A stretch of 64,000 nt of DNA from contig DASTWV010000004.1 in the NCBI GenBank assembly GCA_035765775.1, positions 1-64,000 of the forward strand, given 5' to 3'. How positions within the stretch are numbered: position 1 is the first letter of the stretch; the number at the start of each line of letters is the position of its first letter. The position numbers and the translations under genes were made by a program. This document shows, one piece after another, positions 3,987 through 57,173 of the stretch. This DNA comes from Actinomycetota bacterium (GTDB lineage: Bacteria; Actinomycetota; CADDZG01; JAHWKV01; JAOPZY01). Under the pieces are notes generated by a model that saw only the letters and a program-made list of their open reading frames with translations, ran no database searches and was not told where the DNA came from.

Positions 3987-4058
3987 AAGTCCCTTCCAGG
4001 TACTGCGCCGGACGCGCACCGGCCCCGCCCTCCAGGGCGGGGCCGGCAAAAGGAACCT

Positions 4059-14059: not shown

Positions 14060-14171
14060 AAGGACCGACCAAATGATGTTTGGTCGGCTCCCGGGTCGCC
14101 CCGGGTCATGGCGTGCACGTCGGCGGGCCAACCCCCGGCGCAGATGTCACCTCCGGGGAGGGCCCTTGACC

Positions 14172-15341
14172 GTGCTCGAACGACGCCCCAGCGTGCCCAG
14201 CCGGCCCGCCCGTCCCGCCCGTCTCGCCACGGTGATCGTCGCCGCCGGGCTGGTGGCCGCCGGCTGCAGCTCCACCAAGAGCGCGGGCACCTCCCCCACG
14301 GCGTGCCCGTCGTCAACCCCTCCGGCCCTCAGCCCGGCCTGTGACACCAGCGGCCCGGCGGTCACCCTCAACGGGGCCGGGGCCAGCTCGGCGTCCCCCT
14401 TCTTCACCACGGCCTTCTACACCTACCGGTTCAGCAACCGGGGCGTGAAGGTCAACTACAACCCGGCCGGCAGCAGCGTCGGGGTCAGCGACATCCAGCA
14501 GAACACGGTGCAGTTCGGCGACTCCGAGATCCCCATCCCCGCTCCCGCTTCGGGCACCGCCGGGACCATCCTGCAGCTCCCCGTCGACCTCGGCGGGGTC
14601 GCCCTCGCCTACAACGTCACCGGGGTGGGCGCCGGCCTGAAGCTGGACGGGCCGACCCTGGCCGGCATCTTCCTCGGCACCATCAAGACCTGGAACGACA
14701 TGGCGATCACCGGCCTCAACCCCGGCATGTCCCTGCCCGGTACCCCCATCGTGGCGGTGCACCGGGCGGACTCCTCGGGGCCGGGCTACGACCTCGACCA
14801 GTACCTGATCGACGCCGGCGGGTCGGCCTGGACGGACAAGATCCAGACCACGAAGGCGAGCACCCACTGGCCGGTGGCGGAGATCGGCGTCGGCCAGCAG
14901 CTCAACACCGGCGTCGCCGGCTACATCCAGCAGACCAGCGGGGCCATCGGCTACGTCGAGCAGGCCTACGCCGCCGAGGCCCATATCACCAGCGCAGCCC
15001 TGAAGAACGCCAGCGGGGCATTCGTCACCCCCTCCCCCGCCTCGATCGCTGCCGCCGGGGCGCAGGCCAGTGGTCTCTCGGCCACCAACTTCACCATCGT
15101 CAACGGGCCCGGGGCGGACACCTACCCGCTGGCCAACTTCTCCTGGACGCTGCTCTACCAGAAGCAGGCCGACGCCGAAACCGGCATCGCCCTCGGCAAG
15201 CTGTTCGACTGGGTGACGACCACCGGCCAGCAACAGGCGACCTCGACCGGCTACACCCCGCTGCCCGCCAATGCCGTGGCCCTGGCGCACTCCACCCTCC
15301 AACAGCTCGAGAACGCCAGTGGGCAGCCGCTGTTCTCCTGA
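14172..15341 (+). CDS. pstS: Phosphate ABC transporter substrate-binding lipoprotein
   Basis: A 389-residue lipoprotein (lipobox LVAAGC) that captures phosphate outside the membrane and hands it to PstCAB. The PstS fold begins with LNGAGASSASPFF and continues through IPIPAPASGTAGTILQLPVD and FLGTIKTWND to the C-terminal IALGKLFDWV region, with the Ser/Thr/Asp residues typical of anion binding. GTG 14172 is used because GGGGAGGG lies nine bases upstream; TTG 14166 is too close to that site and the longer frame to 14073 overlaps the promoter downstream region. First gene of pstSCAB. Confidence 0.9.
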   Translation: MLERRPSVPSRPARPARLATVIVAAGLVAAGCSSTKSAGTSPTACPSSTPPALSPACDTSGPAVTLNGAGASSASPFFTTAFYTYRFSNRGVKVNYNPAGSSVGVSDIQQNTVQFGDSEIPIPAPASGTAGTILQLPVDLGGVALAYNVTGVGAGLKLDGPTLAGIFLGTIKTWNDMAITGLNPGMSLPGTPIVAVHRADSSGPGYDLDQYLIDAGGSAWTDKIQTTKASTHWPVAEIGVGQQLNTGVAGYIQQTSGAIGYVEQAYAAEAHITSAALKNASGAFVTPSPASIAAAGAQASGLSATNFTIVNGPGADTYPLANFSWTLLYQKQADAETGIALGKLFDWVTTTGQQQATSTGYTPLPANAVALAHSTLQQLENASGQPLFS

Positions 15342-15365
15342 CCGCTCCGCCCCGGGCGCCGTCAG

Positions 15366-15428
15366 TTCTGTGTACTTCTTCGATTCTGTGTACATGGGGG
15401 GGCTCCACATGGCATCTCATGTAGACAG
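15366..15428. repeat. Direct and inverted repeats in the pstS-pstC spacer
   Basis: TTCTGTGTAC occurs at 15366-15375 and again at 15384-15393, 18 bp apart. The second copy extends to CTGTGTACATG (15386-15396), which pairs with CATGTAGACAG (15418-15428) with one mismatch across a 21-base loop. The element lies 24 bp after pstS and 30 bp before pstC. It may be an mRNA hairpin that protects the pstS message, or a site for a regulator. Confidence 0.5.
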
Positions 15429-15458
15429 AAAAGGCGCGGCCTCCAGGACCCGGGTGCC

Positions 15459-16463
15459 ATGAGCATCTCGCTCCTCGAGGAGGTCCCGCCGCCCCGCCGC
15501 TCCCCCATCCCCGGGGTGCGGGAGGCGATGGAGCACCGCCGCCAGCAGCGGGGCGGGCGGGCGTACACGGCGGCGGGCTGGGCGGGGGCGGTGCTGTTCC
15601 TCGCCGTCGTCGTCGCCCTGGTGGTCAGCCTGGTGGCCAGCGCCAGCCCGGCGTTCGCCCACTCGGGGATCGCATTCCTGTGGGGGGGCACCTGGGACCC
15701 GGTGCACACGGTGTTCGGGGCCGGGGTTTTCGTGGTCGGGACCTTGATCACCACGGCCGTGGCGCTGGTCCTGGCGGTGCCGATCGGCGTCGGCGGGGCG
15801 GCCTTCCTGGCCGAGATGGCGCCCCGGCGCCTCGCCCAGCCGCTCGGGGTGCTCATCGACCTGCTCGCCGCCGTGCCCAGCATCGTCGTCGGCCTGTGGG
15901 GTCTGCTGGTGCTGACCCCGGTGTTCACCCACCACGTCGAGCCCTTCCTGGGCCGGGTGCCGGTCGTGGACCTCCTGTTCCGGGGCCCGGCCCTCGGCTC
16001 CTCGATGCTGCTGGCCGGGGTGGTGCTGGCGGTCATGATCCTGCCCACCATCGTCGCCCTGTCCCGCACCGCCCTGGGCGGGGTGCTGGACGCCGACCGG
16101 GAGGCGGCGATGGCCCTGGGCGCCACCCGCTGGCAGGTCACCCGGCGGGCCGTCATCCCCGGCGCCCGGGGGGGCATCGAGGCGGCCGTCACCCTGGCCA
16201 CCGGGCGGGCGCTCGGTGAGTCGATCGCCGTGGCGATGGTGATCGGCAACCGCTTCGCCCTGCCGCACAGCGTGGGGACTGCCCTGCTCTCCCCGGGGGC
16301 GACGCTCGGCTCGGCGGTCATCAACACTTTCGCCGGGGCGACCACCGCGCTAGAGCGCAGCGCCATCATCGGCCTGGTGGTGGTCCTGTTGGCCATCAGC
16401 GCGGCCGTGAACCTGGCCGGGCAGGTGCTCCTGCGCCGCCGGCGGCGCCGGGAGGGACCATGA
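15459..16463 (+). CDS. pstC: Phosphate ABC transporter permease PstC
   Basis: A 334-residue inner-membrane permease with six main hydrophobic helices and the binding-protein-dependent transport loop (AAMALGATRWQVTRRAVIPG), where the ATPase PstB docks. It forms the phosphate channel with PstA. It begins 117 bp after pstS, leaving room for the repeat element described separately, and overlaps pstA by four bases. Confidence 0.92.
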   Translation: MSISLLEEVPPPRRSPIPGVREAMEHRRQQRGGRAYTAAGWAGAVLFLAVVVALVVSLVASASPAFAHSGIAFLWGGTWDPVHTVFGAGVFVVGTLITTAVALVLAVPIGVGGAAFLAEMAPRRLAQPLGVLIDLLAAVPSIVVGLWGLLVLTPVFTHHVEPFLGRVPVVDLLFRGPALGSSMLLAGVVLAVMILPTIVALSRTALGGVLDADREAAMALGATRWQVTRRAVIPGARGGIEAAVTLATGRALGESIAVAMVIGNRFALPHSVGTALLSPGATLGSAVINTFAGATTALERSAIIGLVVVLLAISAAVNLAGQVLLRRRRRREGP

Positions 16464-17458
16464 GCGACGGGGGCGGGCTCGAGGTGCTCGACGTTCGGCC
16501 CGAGCTCCTGCCCGACGAGCCCCTCCCCCCTGCCCTGGCGGCGGGGGCCGCCGAGCGCCGTCGGGCGATCCGGGTGGCCGCCGCCCGCACCCTGGGCCGG
16601 CGCCAGGCGACCAAGCGGGTGGCGACCGTGCTGTGCGCCGTCGCCACGGCGGTGTGCCTGGCGCCCCTGGTGGCGCTCATCGCCTACACCACCGCCCGGG
16701 GCATCCACGCCCTCAGCCTCGGGTTCCTCCTCCACGAACCCACCCCGCCCGGCATCCCGGGCGGGGGCATCGCCAACGCCGTCGTGGGGTCCCTGCTGAT
16801 CGTCGGGCTGGGGGCCACCCTGGCCATCCCGCTCGGCATCCTGGCCGCACTCTTCCTGTTCGAGCGCCGGGGCATGTTCGCATCGGCGCTCCGCCTGGCG
16901 GGCGACGTCCTCGCCGGCGTGCCCTCGATCGCCATCGGGATCTTCGCCTATGCCGTCGTCGTCGAGCCGCTCGGGTTCTCCGCTCTGGCGGGCAGCGCCG
17001 CCCTCGGGGTCCTGATGCTGCCCATCGTCATGCGGTCGGCCGAGGCCGCCATGCGGTCGGTGCCGGTGGACCTGCGGGAGGCCGCCCTGGCCCTGGGGGC
17101 CCGGCGCTCCCGGGTGGCCCGGTCGGTCGTCCTGCGGGGGGCGCTGGCGGGCCTGGTGACCGGGTCGCTGCTCGCTCTCGCCCGGGCCGTGGGCGAGACC
17201 GCCCCCCTGCTGTTCACCGCCTTCGGCAACCAGTTCTTCAATCTCTCGCCCACCCAACCCACCGCCGCCCTGCCGTTGGTGATCTTCTCGAGCGGCACCC
17301 AACCCTTCCCCGACGCCCAGCAGGTCGCCTGGGGCACGGCCCTGGTGCTGCTGATGCTGGTCCTGGTGCTCAGTCTGGGCGCCCGGGCGATCGCCGGCCG
17401 TCTGACGAGGACCGGGCGTCGGGCGCCGGGCATCACCGAGATTGCCGAAGGAATGTGA
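16460..17458 (+). CDS. pstA: Phosphate ABC transporter permease PstA
   Basis: A 332-residue permease with the conserved EAALALGARRSRVARSVVLR loop and six hydrophobic segments. The N-terminal 55 residues are a charged cytoplasmic extension (ERRRAIRVAAARTLGRRQAT). It pairs with PstC. The ATG overlaps the pstC stop (ATGA), and pstB follows after one base, so the three proteins are translationally linked. Confidence 0.92.
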   Translation: MSDGGGLEVLDVRPELLPDEPLPPALAAGAAERRRAIRVAAARTLGRRQATKRVATVLCAVATAVCLAPLVALIAYTTARGIHALSLGFLLHEPTPPGIPGGGIANAVVGSLLIVGLGATLAIPLGILAALFLFERRGMFASALRLAGDVLAGVPSIAIGIFAYAVVVEPLGFSALAGSAALGVLMLPIVMRSAEAAMRSVPVDLREAALALGARRSRVARSVVLRGALAGLVTGSLLALARAVGETAPLLFTAFGNQFFNLSPTQPTAALPLVIFSSGTQPFPDAQQVAWGTALVLLMLVLVLSLGARAIAGRLTRTGRRAPGITEIAEGM

Positions 17459-17459
17459 G

Positions 17460-18347
17460 ATGGCCGTGACCGAGTCCGCCAAATCCACCGGGCCCACCGC
17501 CCCAGCCCAGACCGCCCCTGCACCGCCCGAGGCTCCCAAACGGCCCCCCACCGCCCGGGAGCGGGTCGTCGAGGCCGAGACCGCCGTCGCCCTCGAGGGG
17601 GTCGGGGTGCGCTTCGGCGACCACCAGGTGGTGCGGGACGTCACCCTGAACCTGGCCCGCAACAAGGTCACCGCCCTGGTCGGGCCGTCGGGGTGCGGCA
17701 AAACCACCATCCTGCGGGCGATCAACCGGCTGCACGACGCCACCGGCGGCACGGTCAGCGGGTCGATCCGGGTGGGCGACCTCGACGTCTACGCCCGGGA
17801 CACCCGCCCGGAGCTGGTGCGCAGCCGGATCGGCATGGTCTTCCAGCGCCCGAACCCCTTCCCGACGATGAGCATCTTCGAGAACGTGGTCTCCGGCCTG
17901 CGCTTCAACGGGGTCCGCAGCCGGACGATCCTGGGGGAGGCGGCCGAGGCTGCCCTGCACCACGCCGCCCTGTGGGAGCTGGTGAAGGACCGCCTGCACG
18001 CCCCGGCCGCCGTGCTGTCGGGCGGCCAGCAGCAGCGCCTGTGCATCGCCCGGGCGCTGGCGGTCGAGCCCGAGGTGCTGCTGATGGACGAGCCGTGCTC
18101 GGCCCTGGACCCGGTGGCCACCGCCAAGATCGAGGAGTTGATCTCCCGGCTGGCGGTCGACGTGACCGTGGGCCTGGTGACCCACAACATGTTCCAGGCC
18201 CGCCGGGTGTCGGACTACACCGCCGTGTTCCTGCTGGGCGAGGACCGGGCGACCGGCGAGCTGGTGGAGTACGGCCACACCGAGCACATCTTCGAGGTCC
18301 CGATGGACCGGCGGACCCACGAGTACGTGACCGGGCGGGTGGGGTGA
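17460..18347 (+). CDS. pstB: Phosphate ABC transporter ATP-binding protein
   Basis: A 295-residue ATPase with Walker A GPSGCGKTT, signature LSGGQQQR, Walker B VLLMDEPCSALDP and the switch histidine in LVTHNMFQARR. It drives phosphate import through PstCA. ATG 17460 is seven bases after GAAGGA. The first 40 residues, rich in Pro and Ala, are an extension relative to usual PstB of about 255 residues. No phoU follows; the operon ends here and a long non-coding stretch begins. Confidence 0.93.
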   Translation: MAVTESAKSTGPTAPAQTAPAPPEAPKRPPTARERVVEAETAVALEGVGVRFGDHQVVRDVTLNLARNKVTALVGPSGCGKTTILRAINRLHDATGGTVSGSIRVGDLDVYARDTRPELVRSRIGMVFQRPNPFPTMSIFENVVSGLRFNGVRSRTILGEAAEAALHHAALWELVKDRLHAPAAVLSGGQQQRLCIARALAVEPEVLLMDEPCSALDPVATAKIEELISRLAVDVTVGLVTHNMFQARRVSDYTAVFLLGEDRATGELVEYGHTEHIFEVPMDRRTHEYVTGRVG

Positions 18348-19218
18348 GCTCCGGGGAGCGGGTGGCTCGAGCCGTGGGTGCAGGTCGATCACCATCGACC
18401 GGTCGCTTTGGATGGCCAGCGAGTAGGACCCTTGCGTGATCGCCTCCACGCAGAGCGGGACCACACCGTGGATCTCGGCCAGTACGGTCGCTCGATCGGC
18501 GAAAGCTACGACCCCAGCCACGATCCCCGGTGTTATCCGGCAGTTACTCCTCTAGTTATTCCTCGACGTCGCCGCCCCGTCCGATAGCTGGCGCTAGAGA
18601 AACTGGACCGCCTGGTCGGTCGCCGCCTGCCCGGTGGGGGCCAGCGGGACCAATGCCCTCTCCTCGGAGGAGTCCGGCCCCGGCGTCACCACGATCGGCG
18701 ACAACCTTTGAGCAGCCGGATTGAATAATCGAGGGGGGCGTCACTTCCCCTCCCTGGCCGCCACGGAGGGTGACGGCTGCTCACTAATAGCGCATAACAC
18801 CCGGCCCCACCCCCCGCCTGGGGCGCGTCATACATAGTTAACAGCCGCTCCAAACGCGAGACTACTCCCGCGGTCGAGCCAAATTTTTTATCAAGGGTGT
18901 CCCACATGGTACCGATTGTGGATAATTGGCAGGGGCAGCTGGGTATTTCAAGATATTTCCATCCCACCCAGCATTAGCAATTCTTAATCTTAGTATCTGA
19001 CCGATTTATCCCTGGACACTCACGACTGACGCAAGTACGGTACCGGGCGCGGTGAAAGCGGAATAAGCAGAACCGCGCGTCGGGGTGTTGCAAAGACCCG
19101 GCGTCGAAATCTGGTCGCCTGGCGCCCGGGGGAGCAAGCGGCGAACCCGACCCCCCGCCAGTTCGGTTGTCAAGCTTTGCCGCGCGAACGCGGCTGAGGC
19201 AGAAAGGAGTACAGGGGT
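18348..19218. other. Long intergenic region and structured leader, no gene seen
   Basis: About 870 bp between pstB and the surface-protein operon. The middle (about 18700-19000) is AT-richer than its surroundings, as expected of a promoter region, but no convincing -35/-10 pair was found. The last 200 bases fold well. GCGCGGT (19047-19053) pairs with ACCGCGC (19072-19078), and GCCGCG-cgaa-CGCGGC (19179-19194) ends eight bases before the ribosome site. The layout resembles a regulatory 5' leader, but I could not match it to c-di-GMP, c-di-AMP or cobalamin riboswitch cores. Confidence 0.5.
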
Positions 19219-19710
19219 ATGAAGTTTTCATCCCGAAAGCGCAAGCTGATCGTGGGCGGCGTCGCCGCCGCTGTGTTGGCGGGTACGATCGGCGCCTTCG
19301 CGTTCTTCACCAGCACGGGCTCGGGCACCGGTTCCGGCAACGTGGGCACGGCGACGAACTGGAACGTGGTCGAGACCTCGCACACCGGGACTCTGTTGCC
19401 AGGCACGGCGACGGAGACAGTGACCTTCACCGTCACCAACGCAGGCGGAGCCGCCCAGTCGCTCAACACCGTGACCGCGACCGTTGACAGCAGCGGTGGC
19501 AACATCACCCAGGCCGGAGTCCCGATTTCCGGTTGCTCGGCAAGCTGGTTCTCGGTGACAAGCCCCTTGACCACCACGCCGGCGGTGCCGACCACTGTCG
19601 CCCCTGGGGGCACCGTCGCCGCATCGACCGTCGTCACGATGATCGAGTCCGGCACCAACCAGGACCCCTGTCAGGGCGCGGCCCCGGACATCACCGCCTT
19701 CGCCAGTTAG
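19219..19710 (+). CDS. SipW/TasA-like exported surface protein
   Basis: A 163-residue protein. A basic start (KFSSRKRKLIVGG) and hydrophobic stretch ending AGTIGAFAFFTSTGSGTGSG give the signal-peptide type of SipW-processed TasA/camelysin-like proteins, followed by a beta-rich Thr/Val domain with two cysteines. Related proteins form biofilm fibres or surface layers; that role here is inference. AAAGGAG is nine bases before the ATG. A perfect 12-bp hairpin follows the gene, so this first product may be made in excess over the other three. No sipW signal peptidase gene is in the window. Confidence 0.65.
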   Translation: MKFSSRKRKLIVGGVAAAVLAGTIGAFAFFTSTGSGTGSGNVGTATNWNVVETSHTGTLLPGTATETVTFTVTNAGGAAQSLNTVTATVDSSGGNITQAGVPISGCSASWFSVTSPLTTTPAVPTTVAPGGTVAASTVVTMIESGTNQDPCQGAAPDITAFAS

Positions 19711-19735
19711 CGAGCATCAACATCCGTCGCTTGAC

Positions 19736-19764
19736 GCCGGGCCGTGGCCGAACCACGGCCCGGC
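19736..19764 (+). terminator. Hairpin after first gene of surface-protein operon (attenuator/processing site)
   Basis: GCCGGGCCGTGG (19736-19747) and CCACGGCCCGGC (19753-19764) form a perfect 12-bp stem with loop CCGAA. No U-tract follows, so it may be a partial terminator or an RNA-stabilising 3' end that favours the first gene. Confidence 0.7.
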
Positions 19765-19840
19765 GCAGGCGGGCCGGACGCTACAACCTCGACGTTCAAG
19801 GCCGCAGGAAGCAACCGAGCGAAGTTCAGGGAATAGCCCT

Positions 19841-20989
19841 ATGAGTTCCAAAGCCGGAGGAAGCAAAGCAGGGTGGGGCCGGATTGCGGTGGGCATTGCC
19901 GCGGTCGTCGGTGTCGTCGCTGGCGCCATCTGGGCCGGTTCGGCCGCCCTGGCGGCACCCGCAACCCCAAGGCCCACGATCACGTCGGGACCCGGCGACC
20001 CGACCACCTCGCGGACGGCGTCATTCACCTATGCCGACAGCAAGTCGGGAGCCTCCTTCCGCTGCGCTTTGGACTCCGGTGACTTCCACTCGTGCTCCAC
20101 GAGCGGCAAGACCTACACCAACCTCTCTCTCGGTTCGCACACCTTCCGGGTGGAGGCCAGGGCGTTCTCGCTGGGCGAGAGCTCCCCGGCGTCCTGGACC
20201 TGGACCATCGTCGATCCCAATGGTCCCCCGAAGCCGGTCATCACCGAGCGGGCGGACAGCACCACACGGGACACCAACCCTGAGTTCGGGTACTACGACC
20301 TGCAGGGCAACGTTCACTTCCTGTGCTCGCTCGATGGCGGCCCGCAGGTGCACTGCACGGGTGACACCGACCACGACGGCGACAATTTCTCCAACAAGCA
20401 CTGCAACTCCGACAACGACAACGAGAACGGGGACGATCGAGACGGCGATGACGACGGGCAGGGCGGCCGGAACGGTTGCTCCTTCGGCGAGATCGAGTAC
20501 CACCACCTCTCGCCCGGCGAGCACTGCTTTTCGGTCGTCGCCGTAGACCGGGCCGGGACGCAGAGCACACCCGCCGAGTTCTGCTGGACGATCAAGGGCA
20601 AGAACAACAACCAGCCGTTCTCGATCAGCGGCAACGCCAGCTCGCCCTTCTTCCCGGGTGCCCCCGCCCAACCGCTGGACTTGGTCCTCACGAACCCGAA
20701 CAACTACGACCTCAGAGTGACGAGCATCACAGTCGGCGTGCAGGCAGGCACGACGTCGCCCGGGGGCGGTCCCGTGCCCGCCTGCAACGGCACGACCAAC
20801 ATCACGGTGACCCGGCAGTTCAGCGGAACGGTGATCGTTCCGGCCAATTCGACGAAGTCGCTGACCGATCTCGGCGCGGCCGCATCGCAGTTCCCGCTCC
20901 TGCAGATGCCTGACCTACCGGTGAGCCAGGACGCTTGTCAGGGCGTCACCTTCCACATGTCGTACGCAGGAACTGGAGTGCAGGCATGA
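19841..20989 (+). CDS. Exported protein with Ig-like folds and an Asp-rich insert
   Basis: A 382-residue protein with an N-terminal signal or anchor helix (VGIAAVVGVVAGAIWAGSAA). Repeated beta-sandwich segments follow (TSRTASFTYADSKSGASFRC and TRDTNPEFGYYDLQGNVHFL) with paired cysteines. Between them lies an acidic insert (SDNDNENGDDRDGDDDG) that could bind calcium. The C-terminal part, from SISGNASSPFFPGAPAQPLD on, resembles the domain of the next two small proteins. No enzyme motif is seen. It is probably a surface or appendage component made with its neighbours; its stop overlaps the next start as ATGA. Confidence 0.6.
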   Translation: MSSKAGGSKAGWGRIAVGIAAVVGVVAGAIWAGSAALAAPATPRPTITSGPGDPTTSRTASFTYADSKSGASFRCALDSGDFHSCSTSGKTYTNLSLGSHTFRVEARAFSLGESSPASWTWTIVDPNGPPKPVITERADSTTRDTNPEFGYYDLQGNVHFLCSLDGGPQVHCTGDTDHDGDNFSNKHCNSDNDNENGDDRDGDDDGQGGRNGCSFGEIEYHHLSPGEHCFSVVAVDRAGTQSTPAEFCWTIKGKNNNQPFSISGNASSPFFPGAPAQPLDLVLTNPNNYDLRVTSITVGVQAGTTSPGGGPVPACNGTTNITVTRQFSGTVIVPANSTKSLTDLGAAASQFPLLQMPDLPVSQDACQGVTFHMSYAGTGVQA

Positions 20990-21459
20990 GGCGGCCGATT
21001 CTGGTTGCAATCTTCTGCGCCCTGACGATGTTGCTGAGCGCGGGCGCGGCCCGGGCCTATTTCTCTGGTAGCGGCTCCGGCACGGGAACCGCCAGCGTGG
21101 GGACGATGCAGGCCGTCACCGTGGCGGCCTACACAGGCGAGACCCTCACCTCACAGCTCTACCCGGGTGGCCCCGCCGCTGACGTGGTTCTCAAGGTCAC
21201 GAATCCCAACAACTTCACTGTGACGGTCACGAGTGTGACTGCCGGGGTCGGCCCGATCACTGCTGATGGCAGCCACCCGGCCTGCACGACCACCGGGGTG
21301 ACGTTCACCGCCCCAGGCACCGTGAACCTCGCTGTGCCAGCCAACACCACCGGCGCGGTCTTTCACCTGCCGGGCGCCGCCGCAATGAGCACGGCCTCGT
21401 CGAACGGTTGCCAGGGAGCGACCTTCAGCATCCCCGTCCAGATCACGGTGCACTCATGA
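20986..21459 (+). CDS. Small SipW/TasA-like exported protein
   Basis: A 157-residue protein with a classic signal peptide (RRPILVAIFCALTMLLSAGA) leading to ARAYFSGSGSGTGTASVGTM, which resembles the processed start of the first operon product. The rest is a beta-rich domain with two cysteines and the phrase VTNPNNFTVTVTSVTAGVG. The end of the preceding protein carries a similar phrase. It probably belongs to the same fibre or surface structure. It starts at ATG 20986, overlapping the upstream stop, and its own stop overlaps the next start in the same way. Confidence 0.65.
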   Translation: MRRPILVAIFCALTMLLSAGAARAYFSGSGSGTGTASVGTMQAVTVAAYTGETLTSQLYPGGPAADVVLKVTNPNNFTVTVTSVTAGVGPITADGSHPACTTTGVTFTAPGTVNLAVPANTTGAVFHLPGAAAMSTASSNGCQGATFSIPVQITVHS

Positions 21460-23291
21460 GCAGAGGGACTCGTTCGTACGCTCGCGCCGTCAGCACCGGC
21501 CGAGCCTCGCGCCGGCTCGTCCTGGGCCTCGTGATGCTCATGATCTGTGCCACCATCGGCGGGGCCTTTGCGTTCTTCACGACCACGAACTCGAGCAACC
21601 CGGCCACCGCTGCCGCCCAGGGCCTGCCTCAGGGCGCCACACCCACCCTCGCCACCTTCGGGACCACCGTCACCGTGACCTTCGCCACGGTGAGCACCAC
21701 TGGTACGCCTGCCGCCCAGGTCACCAACTACAACGTCGTTCGCTATGTGTCTGGGACCGCATCGTCCAGCCCGATCACTGGAAGCTGCAGCACCGTCGGG
21801 ACCACAGTCGCCTGCGTCGACAACGCCGGCACCGGCAGCTGGCAGTACACCGACACGCCGGTCCTGGCGAACTGGACGGGCCAGGAGAGCGCCAAGAGCG
21901 CCGGCATCACCGTGGGCGCTCCGCCGCAGGTGACCTCCATCAATCGCAACGACGCCAACCCCACCAAGGCCGCCACCCTCCACTGGACGGTGACCTTCAA
22001 CCAGCCCGTGGTGCACGTCTCCACGAGCAACTTCTCGCTGGCCACCAGCGGTCTGACCCGCACGCCGAGCATCTCGCTCTCGCCGGCGTCCGGGCCGGCG
22101 ACGACCTACATCGTCACCGCCACCACCTCCGGCGTGTCGGGGTCGGGCACCATCGGCCTGAACCTCACCAGTGCGGGCACAATCCAGAACTCATCAGCTC
22201 AAGCTCTCGCTGGACCGCTGCCCTTCCCGGGTCAGACCTACAACTTCGACAATCAAGACCCGTCGGTGGCCATCACCCAGGTAAACGGGAACACGGTCAC
22301 ATTTCCCTTCTTTACCACCGGGACCGTGACCTCGATCGGCGGCACATGTGGAATAGCAACCGGCGACTTGATCACCGTAACGCTCACCGTGTCATCCCCG
22401 CCGCAGACCGGCACCACAACCTGTAATGCGGGAGGTACCTGGAACTTCACGCTTGGGACCTCGCTGACGGCCACGGGGTCATACACGGCCACCGCGTCCC
22501 AGGCGGACAGCGTCGGCAACCTCGGCACCGCAACGGTGACGATCAACATCGACCGGACGGCGCCCACCATCTCGCTCACGCAGGTCAACGGCGCCACTGT
22601 CACCTTCCCGTACGCCACCAACGCGACCTCTGTCAATTCGGTCGGTGGCAGTTGTGGAACAGCGAGTGGCGACTTGGCGCCGGTGACCGTCACAATCACG
22701 GTGCAGGCGCAGACTGGCGCGGCAAATTGTGCCAGCGGCTCTTGGACCTACACACTGGGTACGCCTCTAACGGCACAGGGCACGTATACGGCAAGCGCTA
22801 GCCAGAGCGATTCGGCGGGCAATGTCGGCGCCACAGGTGTCAAGACAATCATCATTGACCGGACCCCCCCAACGGCCACCGTCACCTTCCCAGTGACCGG
22901 AACGAGCTACTCCATCGGCAACAACGGAACAAACAGTTGGGACGGCAACTCCTGCATTGTCAACGGCGTGAGTGGGACCATGTGTGGCACGGCTGGCGAC
23001 AGCGGGAGCGGCGTTGCTACGGTGCAGATTGCCGTGTTCTCGGCGACGGCGAACAAGTGGTGGGACGGCTCTTTCAATCTCACTACCGGAGCGGCCAGCT
23101 TCACCTTGTCCACTGAGACCTTCTTCACGGTCGCCGGCACCACAGCCTGGAGCCAGACCTGGAACAACCTTGCGTTTGGCCCAGCGCCAACAGGCAACCA
23201 GACGTTAGCCTTCACCGTCCAGGCTCAATCGATCGATGCAGCAGGCAACACCTCTGCGCCCGCAACGGTTTCGTTCAGCGTCAAGAAATAG
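21456..23291 (+). CDS. Large exported protein with Ig-like repeats
   Basis: A 611-residue protein with a SipW-type signal (LGLVMLMICATIGGAFAFFT). A fibronectin/Ig-like domain, an SbsA-like Ig segment (FNQPVVHVSTSNFSL), two similar repeats of about 95 residues (VAITQVNGNTVTFPFFTTG and ISLTQVNGATVTFPYATNA) and a final Ig-like domain follow. The two repeats suggest internal duplication. Codon use after about 22240 is looser and less GC-rich than in neighbouring genes, a hint of later acquisition of the repeat part. It is the last gene of the operon and may be the tip or adhesive component; no catalytic motif is seen. Confidence 0.65.
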   Translation: MSRGTRSYARAVSTGRASRRLVLGLVMLMICATIGGAFAFFTTTNSSNPATAAAQGLPQGATPTLATFGTTVTVTFATVSTTGTPAAQVTNYNVVRYVSGTASSSPITGSCSTVGTTVACVDNAGTGSWQYTDTPVLANWTGQESAKSAGITVGAPPQVTSINRNDANPTKAATLHWTVTFNQPVVHVSTSNFSLATSGLTRTPSISLSPASGPATTYIVTATTSGVSGSGTIGLNLTSAGTIQNSSAQALAGPLPFPGQTYNFDNQDPSVAITQVNGNTVTFPFFTTGTVTSIGGTCGIATGDLITVTLTVSSPPQTGTTTCNAGGTWNFTLGTSLTATGSYTATASQADSVGNLGTATVTINIDRTAPTISLTQVNGATVTFPYATNATSVNSVGGSCGTASGDLAPVTVTITVQAQTGAANCASGSWTYTLGTPLTAQGTYTASASQSDSAGNVGATGVKTIIIDRTPPTATVTFPVTGTSYSIGNNGTNSWDGNSCIVNGVSGTMCGTAGDSGSGVATVQIAVFSATANKWWDGSFNLTTGAASFTLSTETFFTVAGTTAWSQTWNNLAFGPAPTGNQTLAFTVQAQSIDAAGNTSAPATVSFSVKK

Positions 23292-23336
23292 ACGCGCAGA
23301 CTTTATTTTGCAGCGGAGGCGACCAGCGGCAGCCAG

Positions 23337-23612
23337 CTACGAGCGGGCCGCGATTTCCCGAAAAAGCGCTTCAGCATTTCGACCCGTGGATGCGTCGAGG
23401 GCGGACTCGCAATCCTCGAGGCTGACTAGCGCCTCCTGCTCGCCCGCCGTTACCCGGATCTTGTAGCGGATGATGTGCGGCCGGGCCCCGCCCGGGGCAG
23501 CAAACTCAACCCGCTCGTCAGACGCCGCGACCTCGGCAGTGAACTCGGAGCCTTCGCCGCCGAACCGCTCCCGCAGCCGTTCGCAGAGCTTCTCGGCCTC
23601 ATCCCGGATCAC
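23337..23612 (-). CDS. Small hypothetical protein coupled to threonine aldolase
   Basis: A 91-residue soluble protein that I do not recognise: a helical start (AEKLCERLRERFGGEGSEF), then predicted strands (RPHIIRYKIRVTAGEQEALV) and an acidic helix. It begins with a GTG that overlaps the stop of the threonine aldolase gene as GTGA, so it is almost certainly translated with it. No signal peptide or metal site is visible. Confidence 0.55.
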   Translation of the reverse strand: MIRDEAEKLCERLRERFGGEGSEFTAEVAASDERVEFAAPGGARPHIIRYKIRVTAGEQEALVSLEDCESALDASTGRNAEALFREIAARS

Positions 23613-24649
23613 CGCACCACCTCGCCGATCGCCTCCAGGGCCAGCTCGATGTCCTCGGCCGACACGTCCTTGTGCGTCACCATCCGCACCGTACCCGGCC
23701 CGAAGGTGAAGAATTTGACCCCGCTCTCCGCCAGGCGGGCGACGAACTCGTCCGGCGTGAAGCCCAAGGGCGCCGTCCGGACCATGACGATATTGGTCTC
23801 CACCCCGGGCACGTCCACCGCCCCGTCCCGCAGGGCGGCGATCCCCGATGCCAGCCGGCGGGCGTTCTCATGGTCGAGAGGGATCCGCTCCACCATCGTC
23901 TCCAGGCCCACCAGGGCGGCCGCCGCCAGGATGCCCACCTGGCGCATCCCGCCGCCCAGCAGCTTGCGGAACCGGCGAGCCTTGGCCACGAACGAAGCAG
24001 ACCCAACCACCATCGACCCCACCGGGGCCGACAGCGCCTTCGAGAAAGCGAACATCAGCCCGTCGGTCAGCCGGCGGTACTCGGAGACCGGGACACCGGA
24101 GGCGGCAGAGGCGTTGAACAGGCGGGCGCCGTCCATGTAGACGGCTAGGCCGTGCTCGTCGGCGACCTTGCGCAGCGCCACCAGCTCGTCGATGGGGTAG
24201 ACCGCCCCGCCCTCCTGGTTGTGGGTGTTCTCGACGGCCACCACCCGGGTCCGGGGCAGGTAATCCAGGGGCGCCCGGACCGCCTCAGCCACATCGGCGG
24301 GGTCCAGCACCCCCCGCCGGTCGGGCAGCCACCGGGGCTGCACTCCGCCGAAGGCCGAGATGGCCGCCCCTTCGTAGTGCAGGAAGTGGGCGTTGCGGGT
24401 GCACAGCACCTCGTCGCCCGGTTCGGTGAGGGACTTCAGCCCCACGAGGTTGGCCATCCGCCCGCTGGGCACGAACACCGACGCCTCGGCCCCGAAGAGC
24501 TGGTTCACCCGGGCCTCCAGCGCCTGGGCGGTGGGGTCCTCGCCCAGGAAGTCGTCGCCCACCTCGCAGGTCGCCATCGCCTGGCGCATGGCCTCGGTGG
24601 GCTTGGTGACGGTGTCGGACCGCAGATCGACCACCCGGTCCGTCGTCAC
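23609..24649 (-). CDS. Low-specificity threonine aldolase (PLP enzyme)
   Basis: A 346-residue fold-type I PLP enzyme that splits threonine or allo-threonine to glycine and acetaldehyde. It opens with VVDLRSDTVTKPTEAMRQAM, the family signature. It contains the aldolase histidine region (NAHFLHYEGAAISAFGG), ENTHNQEGGAVYP, the PLP aspartate in YMDGARLFNA and the Schiff-base lysine in FSKALSAPVGS. GTG 24649 gives normal family length; the open frame continues to 24745 but the extra 32 residues are unlike the family. Confidence 0.88.
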   Translation of the reverse strand: MTTDRVVDLRSDTVTKPTEAMRQAMATCEVGDDFLGEDPTAQALEARVNQLFGAEASVFVPSGRMANLVGLKSLTEPGDEVLCTRNAHFLHYEGAAISAFGGVQPRWLPDRRGVLDPADVAEAVRAPLDYLPRTRVVAVENTHNQEGGAVYPIDELVALRKVADEHGLAVYMDGARLFNASAASGVPVSEYRRLTDGLMFAFSKALSAPVGSMVVGSASFVAKARRFRKLLGGGMRQVGILAAAALVGLETMVERIPLDHENARRLASGIAALRDGAVDVPGVETNIVMVRTAPLGFTPDEFVARLAESGVKFFTFGPGTVRMVTHKDVSAEDIELALEAIGEVVR

Positions 24650-53585: not shown

Positions 53586-53613
53586 CCGGCCGGGGGCACC
53601 TGCCCCCGGCCGG
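53586..53613 (+). terminator. Strong hairpin terminator after giant protein 2
   Basis: CCGGCCGGGGGCA (53586-53598) and TGCCCCCGGCCGG (53601-53613) are perfectly complementary over 13 bp. TGCGCGTCGGG follows, the same bases that follow the terminator at 57146-57173. No U-tract is present. Confidence 0.75.
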
Positions 53614-57145: not shown

Positions 57146-57173
57146 CACCGGGGACCCTTCGGGGTCCCCGGTG
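57146..57173 (+). terminator. Terminator with UUCG tetraloop
   Basis: CACCGGGGACCC (57146-57157), loop TTCG, and GGGTCCCCGGTG (57162-57173) form a perfect 12-bp stem closed by C-UUCG-G, an exceptionally stable loop. It is followed by CGCGTCGGG, shared with the terminator at 53586. It lies 20 bp after the giant protein 3 stop. Confidence 0.85.

Follow-up and report, generated by a model that had tools for sequence, protein, structure and literature searches.

A four-gene actinobacterial operon that probably encodes an adhesive surface fibre, with a candidate cyclic-dinucleotide riboswitch in its leader

What do four adjoining genes build when family databases recognise little in their products, and how is their expression set? 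The question is raised by positions 19219-23291 of a 64,000-nucleotide (nt) stretch of contig DASTWV010000004.1, from an Actinomycetota bacterium (assembly GCA_035765775.1). This whole stretch is the window to which all coordinates refer; the source genome is 3.6 Mb long and 95.8% complete. A sequence-only reading had seen in these genes a SipW/TasA-like surface operon for a fibre with a major subunit, accessory subunits and a large tip protein or adhesin. We consider it fairly probable that they form an operon for an adhesive surface fibre under RNA-level control by a cyclic dinucleotide. The best reading of the products is a fibre of the donor-strand type, with subunits from the TasA superfamily, processing by LepB and an adhesin at the tip.

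The four genes are co-directional on the + strand, and their positions and signal regions are as first described. The starts of the last two genes overlap the preceding stops by 4 nt, as had also been seen, each within an ATGA (genes 2/3 at 20986, genes 3/4 at 21456). The signal regions end in AFA/FFTSTG in gene 1, ALA/APATP in gene 2, ARA/YFSGSG in gene 3 and AFA/FFTTTN in gene 4 (the slash marks the cleavage site), each an ordinary AxA site, and judging from the translations all four products, including that of gene 2, look exported. Coding sites for AFAFFT number two in the 3.6-Mb genome, both within this operon, and a reversed control pattern has none. A Pfam and NCBIfam scan of the four products returned nothing except the immunoglobulin (Ig)-like repeats of gene 4 (Pfam Big_13, E 1.8e-13), which bears out the description of the last product as a large Ig-repeat protein; NCBIfam matches of gene 4 to OmpL47 were below cut-off. 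Read by eye, the four translations have no LPXTG motif and there is no sortase gene among the four genes, which places the set outside the sortase-assembled pili.

The gene set recurs in other genomes. We examined 18 related loci across the phylum (the phylum sample comprised 396 genomes, to which named Micromonosporaceae were added), and a subunit gene was paired with a tip gene in 18 of 18; a lack of such co-occurrence, which had been put forward as grounds for giving up the fibre proposal, is the reverse of what was found. A profile of the gene 4 head, built from three sequences, identified an adjacent tip gene in 16 loci other than that of the window, and the tips of G107 and Mangrovihabitans were identified by reading the frame. 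In the family neighbour G001, the four genes have the window's order and again 4-nt overlaps, and gene 2 is 54% identical. The full set of four in the same order is also found in G107, which shares only the phylum with the window. The order neighbours G020 and G023 have a set of genes 1, 3 and 4, with one more small subunit in G020. Relatives were retrieved with the gene 3 alignment and not in a contig scan with gene 1 alone; the gene 3 profile found them in 12 of the 396 phylum genomes and in the Micromonosporaceae Paractinoplanes, Winogradskya, Mangrovihabitans and Jidongwangia.

Profile matches indicate homology among gene 1, gene 3 and the C-terminal domain of gene 2. The gene 3 profile matches the gene 2 C-terminal domain at 4e-8 (subunit profile A2: 4.2e-8) and the gene 1 of relatives at 6e-12 to 1e-9, and subunit profile A7 matches the gene 2 domain at 8e-10. 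Invariant across the subunits are two cysteines, the AxA alanines, one proline and one asparagine. In the tip protein, the N-terminus and first domain are kept and the repeats behind them differ completely among relatives, as expected of an adhesin. The gene-2-type protein of G015 ends in a wall-sorting tail (LPFTG-TM-RRR, TM being a transmembrane segment), which would be expected if proteins of this type formed the base.

A perfect hairpin directly behind gene 1 may bear on how much of each product is made. Its 13-bp stem was reached in none of 500 shuffles of that stretch, only four stems of at least 11 bp occur in the window, and control stems upstream and downstream of the operon were unremarkable. 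A stem stands behind the first subunit gene in G001, G020, L043, G107, G023, G115, G273, G002, G043 and two Micromonosporaceae as well (9-14 pairs if perfect, longer where a G-U pair or a small bulge is included; the sequences are unrelated), and no clear stem was found there in L046, L047 and L048. In pilin operons, a hairpin behind the first gene commonly raises the share of that gene's product over those of the downstream genes. The hairpin thus makes gene 1 the candidate shaft subunit. The proteins could instead be adhesins, whether secreted, on the surface or in the matrix, that work singly or in small complexes and form no fibre, an explanation we think rather unlikely. Many surface proteins that form no fibres have Ig-like repeats and beta-sandwiches, the fold matches of the products are generic Ig-like, and most c-di-GMP-II-type riboswitches of the phylum stand ahead of genes for secreted or surface proteins, whose architectures are diverse. 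However, two or three homologous small subunits with one conserved tip head in fixed order, and a hairpin solely behind the first subunit gene, fit an assembly of unequal stoichiometry better. The fibre with major subunit, accessory subunits and large tip is well supported by the paralogy, the gene order, the co-occurrence and this hairpin.

The 5' leader suggests how such a fibre might be controlled. A permissive Rfam scan of 18300-23700 (5.4 kb) gave a single match, to RF03170 (c-di-GMP-II-GCG, named for cyclic di-GMP, c-di-GMP), with 41.4 bits and E 4.8e-5 (whole-genome E 7.2e-6); RF03169 also matches it (whole-genome E 1.5e-5). The 3' end of this aptamer lies 57 nt upstream of the gene 1 ATG, the point at which the coordinates of the sequence-only reading begin, so that the element was left out of it. 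Across the whole genome, no RF03170 match scores higher than the window site, and RF03169 matches nowhere else. The aptamer core motif also occurs once in the genome, and as the window was in the alignment behind the pattern, only this uniqueness is informative. At the same position in G001, 52 nt upstream of its gene 1, RF01786 matches with 51.5 bits (E 7e-9); this site also exceeds the gathering score of RF03170 (49.6 bits) and far exceeds that of RF03169 (53.2 against 40). Class-II aptamers are at the equivalent place in eight other such operons, and where they stand immediately ahead of the homologous operons of five Micromonosporaceae, G107 and G273 they score above the RF03169 gathering score. 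In an alignment of 12 aptamers (11 distinct sequences), the pseudoknot is paired in all 11 and stem P2a in 97% of cells, two-sided compensatory changes occur in both, and covariation is above that of all 500 shuffles; the long stems P1 and P2b, out of register in a plain sequence alignment, add little. A second RF03170 match in the genome (C55:11967) was rejected, as it lies inside a nitroreductase-like coding frame and has no core motif. Folding of the whole leader revealed no obvious expression platform.

The ligand may vary among these aptamers. The window and G107 have GGCGAACCCG, two aptamers of G018 (same order) have GGTGAACCCG, and G001 and the Micromonosporaceae have GGCGAAACCG or AGCGAAACCG. 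We take the GGCGAA(A/C)CCG stretch to be the ligand-contacting site, where the GAG and GCG variants differ. The sequences thus leave room for a ligand of the window aptamer that may differ from that of its relatives. With seven GGDEF domains encoded in its genome, the bacterium probably makes c-di-GMP. RF03169 aptamers are common in the phylum (118 of 396 genomes, up to ten per genome), and among the 30 best RF03169 loci the readable downstream frame begins like a secreted protein in nearly all.

The kinship of the subunits to TasA proved to be distant. The TasA/CalY family PF12389 matches none of genes 1-4 at E up to 1, and among 13 homologues one is reached at 0.045. The subunit L058 of G115 does pass PF12389 (6e-6, 26.7 bits against a cut-off of 22.5, the match including the signal region), and the gene 1 profile (A1) matches L058 at 6e-46 and a TasA-type protein at 9e-4. 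Since the gene 1 profile matches L058 and L058 passes PF12389, the subunits are best described as probable distant members of the TasA superfamily, linked to it indirectly via L058, and not as TasA. AlphaFold models of single chains are beta-sandwiches. In gene 1, an unstructured N-terminal arm (residues 22-43, predicted local distance difference test score, pLDDT, <50) precedes the sandwich, and in gene 3 the arm is a low-confidence strand. TasA was not among the listed structural matches, the best of which (Z 6.1-6.5, for models of pLDDT 71-73) are unrelated folds. The weak top matches of gene 3 include FimA pilins and the Sulfolobus acidocaldarius AAP filament; the TMEM106B, complement and FimA matches were treated as generic Ig-like. 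A sequence search of the PDB with the subunit profile gave weak matches only, AbpX among them (E 0.19-0.24). On the TasA-likeness proposed at the outset, the analysis gave a transitive link and beta-sandwich models, with no direct family match and no clear TasA match in structure.

The SipW part of the original proposal found no support. The profile of SipW-type signals, TIGR04088, has no match at E up to 1 in the four products, nor any in the 13 homologues, and it does match a positive control, the TasA-type protein L081, at 1.5e-7. A search for the archaeal/SipW-type signal peptidase (TIGR02228), which had been suggested as a check, found none in the source genome, where the incomplete assembly keeps the absence from being final, and none in G020 or G002, both of which carry the module. 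The genome has one Peptidase_S26 match only, on another contig (in agreement with the earlier remark that no signal peptidase is nearby), and its SASM...DFIKR motif is that of a bacterial Ser/Lys LepB. As the sites are ordinary AxA sites and this single LepB is present, LepB is most simply taken as the likely processing enzyme. A TasA/TapA-type system proper, with its SipW in the missing part of the genome, is very improbable. The incomplete assembly, the SipW-type peptidase that scores above cut-off in G001 (on a contig other than that of the operon) and the PF12389 match of a relative's subunit speak for it. Against these are the failure of the SipW-signal profile on every member while its control matches, the lack of a SipW match in G000, G020 and G002, all carriers of the module, and the fit of the AxA sites to the LepB at hand.

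Several observations weigh against a riboswitch-controlled fibre. The window aptamer is below the gathering score of RF03170 (47.9) and so short of family membership by score, and the rejected coding-frame match to RF03170 at C55:11967 reaches 37.4 bits, indicating that high GC content inflates such scores. No riboswitch was detected before the operons of G020, L043, G002, G043, G373 and G115, and about half of the homologous operons are without a detected one. In the conserved ...GGCGAA(A/C)CCG stretch, the window aptamer carries C at the position that is A in most relatives, and the leader fold is thermodynamically not unusually stable. The scores and the operons lacking a detected switch are what a chance match would produce, in which case the operon would be controlled otherwise and the fibre would stand. 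We think such a chance improbable, as the site is the genome's best, lies 57 nt upstream of the operon with a far stronger match at the equivalent place in G001, keeps the pseudoknot and compensatory stem changes, and has a core motif that is unique in the genome. On the protein side, the AlphaFold models are only of moderate quality (pLDDT 73 for gene 3, 71 for gene 1), no structure search gave a match reaching E 0.001, the folds found being generic Ig-like, and no wall anchor was seen in the four proteins of the window. Polymerisation, like the ligand, is something we infer, and this too counts on the negative side.

The adhesive fibre under RNA-level control would work as follows. A rise in the dinucleotide would fold the aptamer and allow expression of the operon. 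The class-II c-di-GMP switches of Clostridioides difficile, which govern type IV pili and adhesins, are mostly ON switches (PMC11477304), and the sign of the window switch is assumed to be ON on that basis; a class-II switch would then couple the fibre to high cyclic dinucleotide. The hairpin would leave the gene 1 product in excess, as suits a shaft. Sec would export the products, and LepB would cleave them at AxA. A TasA subunit uses its mature N-terminal strand to complete the sandwich of the one that follows (PMC9674648). Here, the aromatic, Gly/Ser/Thr-rich N-terminal arm released by cleavage would likewise be donated as a strand to the beta-sandwich of the following subunit; the parts, a signal-released arm followed by an Ig-like domain, are present in the two paralogues (genes 1 and 3). 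The gene 3 product may be an adaptor joining tip to shaft, and the gene 4 product, made last and least, would cap the fibre as adhesin. Gene 2 would provide a base or accessory subunit, whose subunit domain could accept but not donate a strand, because it follows Ig domains and lacks a free N-terminal arm.

Four known systems invite comparison. Like tapA-sipW-tasA of Bacillus subtilis, whose TasA fibres form by donor-strand exchange (PMC9674648), the window operon encodes small secreted subunits in which the signal is followed by a short aromatic N-terminal arm and a beta-sandwich, it includes an accessory subunit, and there is a distant superfamily link via PF12389. Unlike it, the window system lacks SipW and SipW-type signals. 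Its subunits are two or three paralogues that share a conserved Cys pair, its large tip adhesin has an invariant head, a hairpin stands behind the first subunit gene, and a riboswitch takes the place of the SinR control of B. subtilis. The archaeal bundling pili (AbpA/AbpX) are also TasA-like donor-strand filaments, and AbpX is the weak, not significant PDB match mentioned above. We know of no tip adhesin operon or riboswitch for them. In C. difficile, class-II aptamers stand directly ahead of surface-fibre and adhesin genes and are mostly ON at high c-di-GMP (PMC11477304), but fibre type and phylum are different, and the window aptamer is closer to the GCG/GAG variant families, with a putative ligand. 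Sortase-assembled pili of Gram-positive bacteria share the several subunits, the Ig-domain tip protein and the cell type, but depend on the sortase and LPXTG that the window operon lacks; among the relatives, the G015 gene-2-type protein alone has such a tail.

A literature search of partial coverage found no description of this operon, nor of TasA genes under a c-di-GMP riboswitch. The more far-reaching proposal is of an undescribed, widespread actinobacterial adhesive pilus, free of sortase and SipW, with disulphide-containing donor-strand subunits of the TasA superfamily, a tip adhesin of constant head and variable repeats, and riboswitches whose ligand-site bases vary, some perhaps sensing a dinucleotide other than c-di-GMP. 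In this full form, it is a tentative proposal that we would not expect to hold in every part. If true, common nameless actinobacterial proteins ('hypothetical' to Pfam and NCBIfam) would become a defined surface-fibre system with a directly assayable regulatory input, TasA-type fibres would extend to bacteria without SipW, and RNA-based second-messenger signalling would be tied directly to fibre production in Actinomycetota. The fibre might be built when a 'settle down' signal of the cyclic-di-GMP family rises, and cultured Micromonosporaceae (Actinoplanes relatives) would be tractable test hosts.

Table 1. Features of the operon and its leader (window coordinates; roles are proposed)
Feature	Position	Strand	Remarks
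Cyclic-di-GMP-II-type riboswitch aptamer, putative	19077-19161	+	Operon 5' leader; Rfam RF03170
Pseudoknot arm 1, UCGCC	19115-19119	+	Pairs with 19140-19144
Pseudoknot arm 2, GGCGA	19140-19144	+	Pairs with 19115-19119
Hairpin GCCGCG-CGAA-CGCGGC	19179-19194	+	Between aptamer and ribosome-binding site; possible part of expression platform; G001 has a hairpin at the equivalent place
Ribosome-binding site of gene 1, GGAG	19206-19209	+	Read from sequence
Gene 1	19219-19710	+	163 aa; small secreted subunit, probably major fibre subunit (shaft); signal AFA/FF; two conserved Cys
Perfect 13-bp hairpin	19735-19765	+	24 nt past gene 1 stop; likely attenuator or mRNA stabiliser setting subunit stoichiometry
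Gene 2	19841-20989	+	382 aa; signal sequence, Ig-like repeats, C-terminal subunit-like domain; candidate base/accessory subunit
Gene 3	20986-21459	+	157 aa; second small subunit, gene 1 paralogue; signal ARA/YF; conserved Cys pair; probable tip-adjacent adaptor
Gene 4	21456-23291	+	611 aa; probable large tip protein; signal AFA/FF, conserved N-terminal head, then variable Ig repeats

Other c-di-GMP riboswitches were met in the phylum. The c-di-GMP-II-GAG aptamers of loci L061-L089, with mostly signal-peptide genes among the readable downstream frames, look like a large surface-protein regulon. In G018, three c-di-GMP-II riboswitches (L020, L021, L022) precede surface proteins, two of which exceed 1200 aa and have LPXTG-like C-terminal tails. 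In G037, a c-di-GMP-II-GAG riboswitch lies 563 nt upstream of the gene for a bona fide TasA/CalY-type protein (L081; PF12389 5.5e-14, SipW-type signal), an independent example of a switch of this kind ahead of a TasA-family gene. In G015, a strong c-di-GMP-I-GGC riboswitch (L056 7976-8054, 71.6 bits) lies ahead of the gene for a 128-aa secreted protein, next to the fibre operon and divergent from it; as the riboswitch is oriented away, it was not counted for that operon.

Within the window, the other perfect hairpins, of 12 bp, are at 4019-4046, 53586-53613 and 57146-57173. Gene 2 contains an Asp/Asn-rich insert (GDTDHDGDNFSNKHCNSDNDNENGDDRDGDDDGQ) in a loop of an Ig domain, at about 20353-20475, which resembles a calcium-binding stretch and is not in the G001 orthologue. 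Upstream on the same strand, about 700 bp without a convincing gene (18350-19076) separate the riboswitch from pstB, the end of a complete pst-type phosphate uptake operon at 14073-18347 (PstS, PstC, PstA and PstB, from translations).

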